Assembly: GCF_003977685.1 (NCBI RefSeq)
Contig: NZ_RYZH01000005.1
Span: forward strand, 1-64,000
DNA length: 64,000 nucleotides
Direction of reading: 5' to 3'
Origin: Tautonia sociabilis
Lineage (GTDB): Bacteria; Planctomycetota; Planctomycetia; Isosphaerales; Isosphaeraceae
The notes beneath the pieces were generated by a model. It was not told where the DNA came from. It saw only the letters and a list, made by a program, of their open reading frames with translations, and ran no database searches. Position numbers and translations under genes: made by a program. Positions 47,285 to 50,680 of this stretch are shown here, one piece after another; position 1 is the first letter of the stretch; the number at the start of each line of letters is the position of its first letter.

Positions 47285-48978
47285 GGTCGGCTCCCCTCGG
47301 GAATCGGCGACGAGCCGGACGGGCTGGGAGCGGCCGGCACCCGGTCGAGGAAGCGACGGATCGGCTCCCGGAGCCCGTCGCATCGGACGACGTCTCTCGG
47401 GCCGTCCTCGCTCTCCCAACCCAACCAGACGATCGGGGGCCCGGCCTCCAACGCCGCCTGGAGCGGCCCACCCTGCTCCGCCTCGATCGGCAGCCTCGAC
47501 GGCCAGGCCGCGGCGACCCGAGCCGGGGGGGCCCCTCCCCAGCCGAGTCTCAGGAGCGGACCGGCGGATCGATCCCGGTCGTCGAGGCTGGCGAGCCCCT
47601 CGTCCAGCACGCCGTCTCCCCACCCGATGAAGACCGAACTCCCTCGGCGGGCCAGGTCCACCGGCTGGCCGGCGATCCGGCCGAGCCGACGGCCGGGGTC
47701 GATCCCCGCCTCCTCCCCCCGGAGGACGATCGGGGACACGATGCGGTCGGCGATCCGGCCGGCCGATCCCTCGTCCCGGGCGTGCAGCGCGAGGAAGACG
47801 CCATCGGCGTCGCCCCCACCGCCGAAGGACGCCCAGCACGTCACCCCCTCGAGCGCCGGCCAGAGCTCCGTCTCGATGCGGGCCCCGTGTGCGATCGCCA
47901 GCAGGGCGAGGCGAGTCCGCAACGGAGCGACCCCGACTCGGGCCGGATCGGCTCGTTCGATCTCGTCGACCGCCGCCAGCAACGCCCCCCAGCCCTCCCC
48001 TCCGGGGCGGACGGCGAGGCAAGCCATCACCGACGCCCGATCGGTCGGGACCGAGTCCAGCCAGTCCGGGTCGATCTCCCCCCAGGGGTCCTTCCGATCG
48101 CCGGAAAACGGCTTCCCCTCGGCGGCCACGCGCAGCGACTCTCCGTCGAGCGACGCCCTCGCGAGGAAGGTCCCGTAGCCGAGGCCCTCCAGCGCCCGGC
48201 CGAGCTGCCGGGCCCGGAGGTTGGCCGAGCGAGCCAGCGCCTCCGGATCGACCCGGACGATCCAGCCCGAGTCGGAGTCGGAGTCGGATCGAGCCGAGTC
48301 CGGCCCCTCCCCCGCCCCCGCGATCGCGGATCGCAGGGCATCGCGGTCGGAGGCGACGACGGCCGGCGTCCCCGGCCCCGCCGTCGCGGACAGCGGGGCC
48401 CCCGGGGGACCAAGCCGGTCGATCTGGAGCGGGCCCTCCGCGTCCTGCGGCATGCCGTCGGTCAGCGTCATCGCGGTCGCCAGCGCCGCGATCGTGCCGT
48501 CGTCCTGAGGAACCAGCAGGGCCCACCGGACGGAGCCCCCCGCCGGAGCCGGATCGATCCGCAACCGGGCTCCGTGGAGCGTGGCCAGTTCTCGGGCCGT
48601 CAGCGGGTTGATCGCGGCGATCAGGGCCTCCAGCGGCTTACCCAACGACCGTTCCTCTCCCGGCGGGGCCGATCGTTTCCAGTCGGCCAGCGCGGCGGCC
48701 GGATGTGGCCAGCGGGCCCCCTCGAACAGGGAGAGAACGCGCCGGCACTGCTCGTCGGGACGGATGGCCACGACTTCCACGGCCGGAACAATCGGAGCAT
48801 CCCCCGCCCCGGCCAGGCAGGAGGGGGGGATCGCCGTCCCGATCGCCACGACTGTCAGGAGCCGGCGGAGCGACCGGCCCGGGGCGGCTTGCCCGGGCTC
48901 GGCCCGTCTCGGTAGGCTGAGAACCGATCGGGGCCGACCGTCCGGAGCCCCGGGTCGATCATCGCAGGAGCATCGCAT
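47281..48978 (-). CDS. Probable exported protein, unknown
   Basis: A protein of up to 565 residues with no recognised family. The N-terminal part contains a signal-like stretch RRLLTVVAIGTAIPPSCLAG, but only the ATG at 48978 gives a start in front of its arginines. That ATG overlaps the start of the divergent ferredoxin gene, so the true start may be a downstream GTG (48849). The mature part has alternating helix/strand units and repeated WxG-like positions; a Ser/Asp run is encoded by GAGTCG repeats. It has the look of planctomycete DUF3352-like proteins (weak impression). The stop overlaps the next gene (ATGA). Confidence 0.55.
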   Translation of the reverse strand: MRCSCDDRPGAPDGRPRSVLSLPRRAEPGQAAPGRSLRRLLTVVAIGTAIPPSCLAGAGDAPIVPAVEVVAIRPDEQCRRVLSLFEGARWPHPAAALADWKRSAPPGEERSLGKPLEALIAAINPLTARELATLHGARLRIDPAPAGGSVRWALLVPQDDGTIAALATAMTLTDGMPQDAEGPLQIDRLGPPGAPLSATAGPGTPAVVASDRDALRSAIAGAGEGPDSARSDSDSDSGWIVRVDPEALARSANLRARQLGRALEGLGYGTFLARASLDGESLRVAAEGKPFSGDRKDPWGEIDPDWLDSVPTDRASVMACLAVRPGGEGWGALLAAVDEIERADPARVGVAPLRTRLALLAIAHGARIETELWPALEGVTCWASFGGGGDADGVFLALHARDEGSAGRIADRIVSPIVLRGEEAGIDPGRRLGRIAGQPVDLARRGSSVFIGWGDGVLDEGLASLDDRDRSAGPLLRLGWGGAPPARVAAAWPSRLPIEAEQGGPLQAALEAGPPIVWLGWESEDGPRDVVRCDGLREPIRRFLDRVPAAPSPSGSSPIPEGSRP

Positions 48979-49300
48979 GCCGACCATCACCGTCGAGGGC
49001 GTCGGAGCGTTCGACGTCGAACCGGGCAAGAAGCTGGTACTGGCCATCGAAGACTCCGGCGTCGACATCCTCCACCGCTGCGGAGGCCAGGCCAAGTGTA
49101 CGACCTGCCGGGTGGAAGTGCTGGAGGGAGACGCCCCGCCGATGGAGGCGGCCGAGCGCGACCGCCTGGCCACCGAGCCGAACCTGCCCCCCAACACCAG
49201 GCTCTCCTGCCAGATCCGGGTCACGGGAGACCTCTCCGTCCGGGTCCTCAACCGCTCCTCGACCACCGGCAAGGAGCCGGGCCCCCGGCCCGCCGACTGA
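48977..49300 (+). CDS. [2Fe-2S] ferredoxin, plant/adrenodoxin-like fold
   Basis: A 107-residue ferredoxin with the 2Fe-2S cysteines Cys35, Cys41, Cys44 (HRCGGQAKCTTCRVEV) and Cys78 (LSCQI). The N-terminal beta-grasp portion is ITVEGVGAFDVEPGKKL. The cluster spacing C-x5-C-x2-C-x33-C fits the family. It carries single electrons to an unknown partner. A GGAG precedes the ATG by seven bases. It is divergent from the exported-protein gene, and L33 lies 119 bases downstream on the same strand. Confidence 0.93.
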   Translation: MPTITVEGVGAFDVEPGKKLVLAIEDSGVDILHRCGGQAKCTTCRVEVLEGDAPPMEAAERDRLATEPNLPPNTRLSCQIRVTGDLSVRVLNRSSTTGKEPGPRPAD

Positions 49301-49419: not shown

Positions 49420-49599
49420 ATGGCGAAGAAAGCGGCCGGTCGCGAGTACGTCTGGCTCCAGTGCTCCGAGACCGGCGACCTCAACTACCGGATCTCCGTG
49501 AACACCCGGGGCGGCATTCCCGAAGGGCTCCAGGGCGGCCTGAAGAAGTACTGCCCCCGCGTCCGGCGCCACACCCTGCACAAGATCAAGCGGAAGTGA
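49420..49599 (+). CDS. rpmG: 50S ribosomal protein L33 (bL33)
   Basis: A 59-residue basic protein. VWLQCSETGDLNYRISVNTR in part and the ending LKKYCPRVRRHTLHKIKRK are the L33 hallmarks. Each of the usual two zinc-knuckle pairs has only one cysteine left, so this is a zinc-free (C-minus) or partly degenerate form. A GGGAGAAGG sequence precedes the ATG. It is convergent with the 40-residue zinc ribbon gene, separated by a large hairpin. Confidence 0.85.
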   Translation: MAKKAAGREYVWLQCSETGDLNYRISVNTRGGIPEGLQGGLKKYCPRVRRHTLHKIKRK

Positions 49600-49730: not shown

Positions 49731-49853
49731 TCACGCGTTGCTCTGGTTGCACTTCTTGCAGCGGCCGATCTTGCGGCGCACCTGGCCGCCGCATCGCTTG
49801 CAGCGGATGTACTTGTTCCGGTGCGTTGACTTCTTCCGGGGTCGCAGAGGCAT
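49731..49853 (-). CDS. 40-residue zinc-ribbon protein
   Basis: A very small basic protein opening MPLRPRKKSTHRNKYIRCKR and containing two CxxC pairs (CKRC at 18-21 and CKKC at 32-35), spaced like a zinc ribbon. GGAG lies six bases before the ATG. The sequence resembles the L37e/L40e type of archaeal and eukaryotic ribosomal zinc proteins more than bacterial L36 or L32 (own comparison). Lying next to L33 suggests a ribosomal or translation role (inference). It is convergent with rpmG. Confidence 0.7.
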   Translation of the reverse strand: MPLRPRKKSTHRNKYIRCKRCGGQVRRKIGRCKKCNQSNA

Positions 49854-49984
49854 CGCTTACTCCGGGGATCGAGAAATGAAGGTCTGCGATCGCTGATCGC
49901 GAGACCTCCGATCGTACCCGACCGGCCCCCCGCCACGGAAGCCGTCTTGTCCGCTTGACCGCTGGCCTCGGCCCCTGCCCCGGA

Positions 49985-50680
49985 TCACGACATCGCCTTC
50001 CAGAGCCGCTCGAATTCCCTCACGAAGGCGGCCACGAGGCCCGGCTCCCCCGAGGTGATGAAGTTCTCGAAGTTGTGCTCGGCGGCCCCCCGGGTCCAGT
50101 TGTAGCTGCCGGTCAGCACGGTCGATCGGTCGAAGACCGCGAACTTGTGGTGCATGTGGTTCGGGTCGCGGTCGGTGCGGGTCGGCACTCCGGCCCGTCG
50201 GAGTCGGTCGATGTCCGACCCCGTGTCGTGGGCCTTCTCGTCGTCGGTGATCAGGCGGAGGGAGACTCCTCGGCGGTGCGCGCCGAGGATGGCGGCGGTG
50301 ATCCGGTCGTCGGTGATCGTGAAGACGCAGATCTCGGCCGTCGATCGGCAGCGATCGAAGAGCCAGGCGATCGCCCTCGGGCCGGAGTCGCCCGGAGTGA
50401 AGTAGGCGGCCGATTCGGGAGCCGCCGCCCGGGACTCGGCGCCGCGATGCGCCAGCAGCTTCTCCACCTCCTCCAGCCAGTCGATCACCTCAACCCCGGC
50501 CCCTTCGGCCATCGCCTGCCGGGCAAGGGCGAAGGCGCGGTTGCGCCAGAGGGCCAGCTCCCCCGGGTCGGCTCCCTGGGCGTCGAGGACCTTGTCGATC
50601 AGCGTGCGTTCCCCTCGGGAGAAGCGGAAATCGCTGAGGGTCTGGGAAAGCAGGTCGTCGATGCGAGCGGCGTCGGCCAT
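49985..50680 (-). CDS. Phospholipase D-like protein (single HKD motif)
   Basis: A 231-residue PLD-superfamily protein. A single catalytic motif HHKFAVFD followed by TGSYNWTRGAAEHNFEN matches the small Nuc/ZUC/cardiolipin-hydrolase type, which acts as a homodimer. An Asp/Glu-rich region precedes it (FTITDDRITAAILGAHRRGVSLRLITDDEKA in pieces). It could cleave nucleic acid or phospholipid. The first 85 residues are a helical extension. No signal peptide is seen, so it is probably cytoplasmic. It is divergent from the small basic protein gene. Confidence 0.85.
   Translation of the reverse strand: MADAARIDDLLSQTLSDFRFSRGERTLIDKVLDAQGADPGELALWRNRAFALARQAMAEGAGVEVIDWLEEVEKLLAHRGAESRAAAPESAAYFTPGDSGPRAIAWLFDRCRSTAEICVFTITDDRITAAILGAHRRGVSLRLITDDEKAHDTGSDIDRLRRAGVPTRTDRDPNHMHHKFAVFDRSTVLTGSYNWTRGAAEHNFENFITSGEPGLVAAFVREFERLWKAMS

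Follow-up and report, generated by a model that had tools for sequence, protein, structure and literature searches.

A 64,000-nucleotide stretch of the Tautonia sociabilis genome (contig NZ_RYZH01000005.1; the whole stretch is referred to here as the window) contains a small open reading frame for which an earlier sequence-only reading had proposed a role as an unrecognised ribosomal or translation protein of planctomycetes. Two questions arise: whether this ORF is a gene at all and, if so, whether its product belongs to the ribosome. The ORF lies exactly where it had been placed and runs on the minus strand, from position 49853 to position 49731, with the translation MPLRPRKKSTHRNKYIRCKRCGGQVRRKIGRCKKCNQSNA; the plus strand over the same interval carries an in-frame stop and is not open. 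At the predicted length of 40 residues, the product falls below a 60-residue cut-off and hence had been missed. The features first singled out, namely a good ribosome site, two CxxC pairs and a basic composition, are all present (Table 1), the protein containing 15 lysine or arginine residues and neither aspartate nor glutamate.

Table 1. Positions in the window of the zinc-ribbon gene, its sequence elements and two nearby genes.
Feature	Position	Strand	Basis
Zinc-ribbon protein CDS, 40 aa, stop codon included	49731..49853	-	Homologues and dN/dS
Shine-Dalgarno-like GGAG, 6 nt before ATG	49860..49863	-	GAGGTG at a like place in many relatives
N-terminal RPRKK motif, residues 4-8 (family: RPR[K/T]K)	49830..49844	-	Conservation across 78 members
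First zinc knuckle CKRC, residues 18-21	49791..49802	-	Both Cys in 78/78 members
Second zinc knuckle CKKC, residues 32-35	49749..49760	-	Both Cys in 78/78 members; invariant R31 precedes
rpmG (bL33), divergent form, only copy found in genome; convergent	49420..49599	+	PF00471 45.3 bits, cut-off 25
2Fe-2S ferredoxin (Fer2)	48977..49300	+	PF00111 45.9 bits

A single-sequence search of 59 relatives returned matches in 32 genomes, the window itself scoring E 1.8e-22 and a congener E 3.4e-15. A family profile recovered homologues from 30 of the 45 Isosphaeraceae genomes; a broader one recovered them from at least 102 of 298 Planctomycetia genomes, representing 11 family groups. The latter figure, about a third of the class, is a lower bound, and absences in the class-wide survey are unproven because at most 25 candidates were scored per genome. 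Members from the Isosphaeraceae are alike in length, start position, Shine-Dalgarno-like GAGGTG and sequence; named carriers, taken from a narrower alignment with seven named loci, include Singulisphaera acidiphila DSM 18658 and Singulisphaera sp. GP187. Most proteins of the family are 38 to 46 amino acids long.

In an alignment of 78 members, the four cysteines and two arginines (R4 and R31) are invariant, and other positions of the N-terminal tail are nearly so (P5, 99%; R6, 91%; K8, 87%). The knuckles are separated by 10 residues in 46 members, the window protein included, by 9 in 28 and by 12 in 4. The charge bias is likewise a family trait, with 14-18 lysines and arginines and 0-2 acidic residues per protein among 35 members. 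Most close pairs give dN/dS ratios between 0.06 and 0.1 (Nei-Gojobori method), indicative of purifying selection; higher ratios were obtained for the window versus its congener (0.52) and for one other pair (0.42), where few changes are available. A short ORF in G+C-rich DNA, where spurious reading frames abound, could in principle owe its existence to chance. Class-wide homologues of the same length, the invariant cysteines and the selection against amino acid change rule this out for all practical purposes. Thus, neither of the outcomes that would have spoken against the original proposal, a lack of homologues in related genomes or substitutions typical of non-coding DNA, was observed, and the ORF is a genuine conserved gene.

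The inheritance of the gene was examined on a tree of the family. The Isosphaeraceae sequences form one clade (SH-aLRT support 99%); few other branches are resolved with the 41 columns available. Taxon labels require 13 changes on the tree, as against 40.3 when shuffled, the pattern expected of vertical descent. Carriers have one copy per genome, the exception being G007, an assembly with 9% contamination. In a phylum-wide sample, every full-length match with E < 1e-5 came from the Planctomycetia. A mobile or phage origin was considered and rejected: plasmids, phages and viral contigs gave no match to the protein, and matches in PHROGs, like those in NCBIfam, were weak and confined to the knuckles. 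In two congeners (G002, locus L143, and G003, locus L144), the ferredoxin and rpmG genes are retained, as is the gene flanking the locus in a third congener (G001), and the zinc-ribbon gene is gone without a trace. These are clean natural losses and, since the locus is otherwise intact, they indicate that the gene is dispensable.

The protein scores below the cut-off of every Pfam and NCBIfam model, so the family is nameless in these collections, and no name for it, or for the DUF6800 family described below, was found in the literature. The best Pfam match is Zn_ribbon_LapB (PF18073), a rubredoxin-type domain, at 23.2 bits for a cut-off of 25.7; it covers residues 17-39, that is, the knuckles alone without the TPR part. 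Members from other families match assorted unrelated zinc ribbons. The family is therefore real and unrecognised, as had been supposed; it is specific to the Planctomycetia, vertically inherited, single-copy and nameless.

What might such a protein do? Among bacterial ribosomal proteins, bL32 and bL36 are short, basic, equipped with zinc knuckles and located on the 50S subunit, traits that the zinc-ribbon protein shares except for the demonstrated location. However, their models (PF01783 and PF00444, respectively) do not match it, and both have single genes of their own elsewhere in the same genome (bL32 at C57:31877-32044; bL36 at C68:47177-47290). Identity of the protein with bL32, bL33 or bL36 was rejected because the genome has its own copy of each, and the presence of all three also eliminates the replacement of a missing zinc ribosomal protein.

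The sequence-only reading had placed the protein closer to archaeal and eukaryotic ribosomal zinc proteins than to L36 or L32. The direction of this claim stood up, as the nearest ribosomal protein by both profile and fold is archaeal eL40, itself a small, basic C4 zinc ribbon; its strength did not, as neither likeness is significant. When an Isosphaeraceae-led profile (A1) was compared with all PDB sequences, eL40 proteins scored E values of 0.033 and 0.037, in ungapped alignments over both knuckles; a class-wide profile (A5) gave eL40 at 0.017 and 0.027. The window protein has the C-x2-C-x10-C-x2-C spacing of archaeal eL40 and aligns without gaps with the eL40 of 9znf/9nri. An AlphaFold2 model built from eight sequences has a mean pLDDT of 77.9 and a pTM of 0.40, the ribbon being better predicted than the weak tail. 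With this model, the top Foldseek match in the PDB was L40e of S. solfataricus (2ayj; E 0.61, TM 0.46, rmsd 7.5), and the further fold matches listed were other zinc ribbons, some ribosomal and some of the RanBP2/NZF type. On the other hand, PF01020 (Ribosomal_L40e) finds neither the protein, even at E values up to 10, nor anything in the whole genome at E <= 1, whereas archaeal controls do match. By this test, the protein is not an L40e. A true bacterial eL40, occupying the eL40 site of the 50S subunit and either obtained from archaea or inherited from a shared ancestor, would account for the spacing and for the nearest-neighbour relationship, but the likeness is limited to the knuckles, 32 of the 78 members have a spacing of 9 or 12, the tail (RPR[K/T]K) is different, and the gene is dispensable and was found in one bacterial class only. 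We regard this origin as highly improbable.

Profile A5 points in a second direction, its best PDB match being archaeal Rpo12 (E 0.00043). Taken at face value, this would make the protein an accessory subunit of the transcription apparatus, a zinc ribbon acting like archaeal/eukaryotic Rpo12/RPB12. However, two half matches add up to this score, each knuckle falling on the same few profile columns, and neither A1 nor A5 produces an end-to-end match to Rpo12 (RNA polymerase subunit P). Moreover, A1 finds Rpo12/RPB12 only at E 0.36-2.7 (archaeal Rpo12 at 0.65 or worse), and no Rpo12 appears among the fold matches listed. A polymerase subunit is thus a very unlikely assignment, and working like a small zinc-ribbon ribosomal protein is a reasonable comparison to draw from the resemblances.

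The ORF had also been described as next to L33. This is true of the window, where the bL33 gene was confirmed, its end lying 131 bp from the end of the zinc-ribbon ORF. The two genes are nevertheless on opposite strands and convergent, and genus g1 is the only one in which the pair was seen, so the adjacency is uninformative and was discarded as a sign of a ribosomal role. The zinc-ribbon gene stands alone, outside any ribosomal operon. As for bL33 itself, this genome and its three congeners yielded a single form, a divergent 59-residue protein without the zinc CxxC pairs. A bL33 with a standard score occurs in most other Isosphaeraceae, and a few genomes (G011, G028, G441 and G443) have both forms. 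Two further observations concern other neighbours. At one locus only (L153, genome G050), the zinc-ribbon gene is followed, about 1.3 kb downstream on the opposite strand, by a gene for a bS21-like protein (TIGR00030, 34.1 bits). In the window, a co-directional gene about 130 bp upstream (49985-50680, minus strand) encodes what appears by eye to be a phospholipase-D-like (HxK) protein; no such neighbour was seen at other loci.

Among Isosphaeraceae loci, the most frequently retained neighbour is a convergent 2Fe-2S ferredoxin gene (15 loci), which in genus g1 is separated from the zinc-ribbon gene by the divergent rpmG. This recurrence might suggest that the protein is a redox partner of the ferredoxin, or else a zinc store or chaperone. 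Yet the genes converge and so do not constitute an operon, the link to ferredoxin was not seen in other families, and neither function would seem to need a constant, acid-free basic tail. A functional link between the two genes is doubtful, and storage, chaperone or redox roles appear altogether improbable.

A different association was found outside the Isosphaeraceae. In 15 genomes from five genera of family group f2, which we infer to be the Planctomycetaceae, the zinc-ribbon gene has a DUF6800 gene (PF20607) immediately downstream in the same orientation, 63-155 bp away from match to match (among them loci L157, L159, L155, L161, L212, L214, L215, L216 and L218). Like the zinc-ribbon protein, DUF6800 is a small, basic planctomycete protein of unknown function; unlike it, DUF6800 has no cysteine knuckles, and is a neighbour rather than a relative. 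DUF6800 is present in 253 of the 298 Planctomycetia genomes, nearly always in single copy, but in none of the 45 Isosphaeraceae genomes, indicating that the two genes are linked in some lineages only. This absence, and the fact that the two genes are unlinked in 18 of 33 genomes checked, exclude DUF6800 as an obligate partner. DUF6800, too, may be an RNA-binding or ribosomal protein.

Taken together, the family is short, basic, conserved, single-copy and vertically inherited. The protein probably binds RNA and may sit on the ribosome. Our tentative proposal, which as a whole we hold with somewhat less than even confidence, is that it binds rRNA as a non-essential accessory protein, either within the planctomycete ribosome or during ribosome assembly. 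The four cysteines would bind one zinc ion and shape a small ribbon of the eL40/RanBP2 kind, and the basic RPR[K/T]K tail, disordered in the free protein, would sit in a groove of the RNA, a contact modelled on the tails of other zinc-ribbon ribosomal proteins. The protein would be added to bL32, bL33 and bL36, not take their place. In favour of the proposal are the conservation and inheritance pattern of the family, its charge bias, the ribosomal and RanBP2-type zinc fingers among the fold matches, the ungapped profile matches to eL40 and, in five genera, the position of the gene upstream of DUF6800, which is likewise small and basic. Counting against this proposal are the non-significant likeness to eL40, the isolated position of the gene, its detection in about a third of the genomes of the class and its loss in two congeners.

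A further point against it is that DNA and RNA polymerase, too, are bound by basic zinc ribbons. The protein might instead be a free regulator acting on mRNA, sRNA or DNA away from the ribosome, in the manner of the small CPxCG zinc-finger proteins of haloarchaea. Regulators of this sort have been described, such as Brz in Halobacterium (PMC2253796). Size, zinc knuckles and dispensability would all fit. Single-copy occurrence and a vertical pattern do not favour such a role, nor does the lack of a conserved partner gene across families, and the tail appears more constant than would be usual for small regulators. A free regulator appears rather unlikely.

Lineage-specific accessory ribosomal proteins have precedents in bL37 of Mycobacterium (PMC5876184) and bL38 of Borrelia (PMC10618245), both seen in cryo-EM maps. 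If ribosomal, the zinc-ribbon protein would be of the same kind, a short, lineage-restricted extra protein missed by annotation; the parallel is one of description, and the zinc-ribbon protein is a prediction. The accessory ribosomal reading can be pushed further, to an undescribed Planctomycetia ribosomal protein at an rRNA site equivalent to that of eL40, gained convergently, lost in parts of the class and, in some lineages, co-transcribed with DUF6800 as a second undescribed component. So specific a scenario has, in our estimation, little chance of being correct.

A search of the literature found no solved planctomycete ribosome, although one may exist. A basic zinc ribbon encoded in single copy across the class is a candidate for unassigned density in such a structure or for detection by small-protein mass spectrometry. 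The family can be summarised by the profile RPR[K/T]K, C-x2-C, then 9, 10 or 12 residues ending in R, and C-x2-C, with which annotation pipelines could recover about a hundred genes that may be lost to length cut-offs. Should the protein be ribosomal, the Planctomycetia would provide a natural example of a ribosomal protein that is lineage-specific and has been lost repeatedly; otherwise, the family would constitute a new group of small RNA- or DNA-binding proteins.
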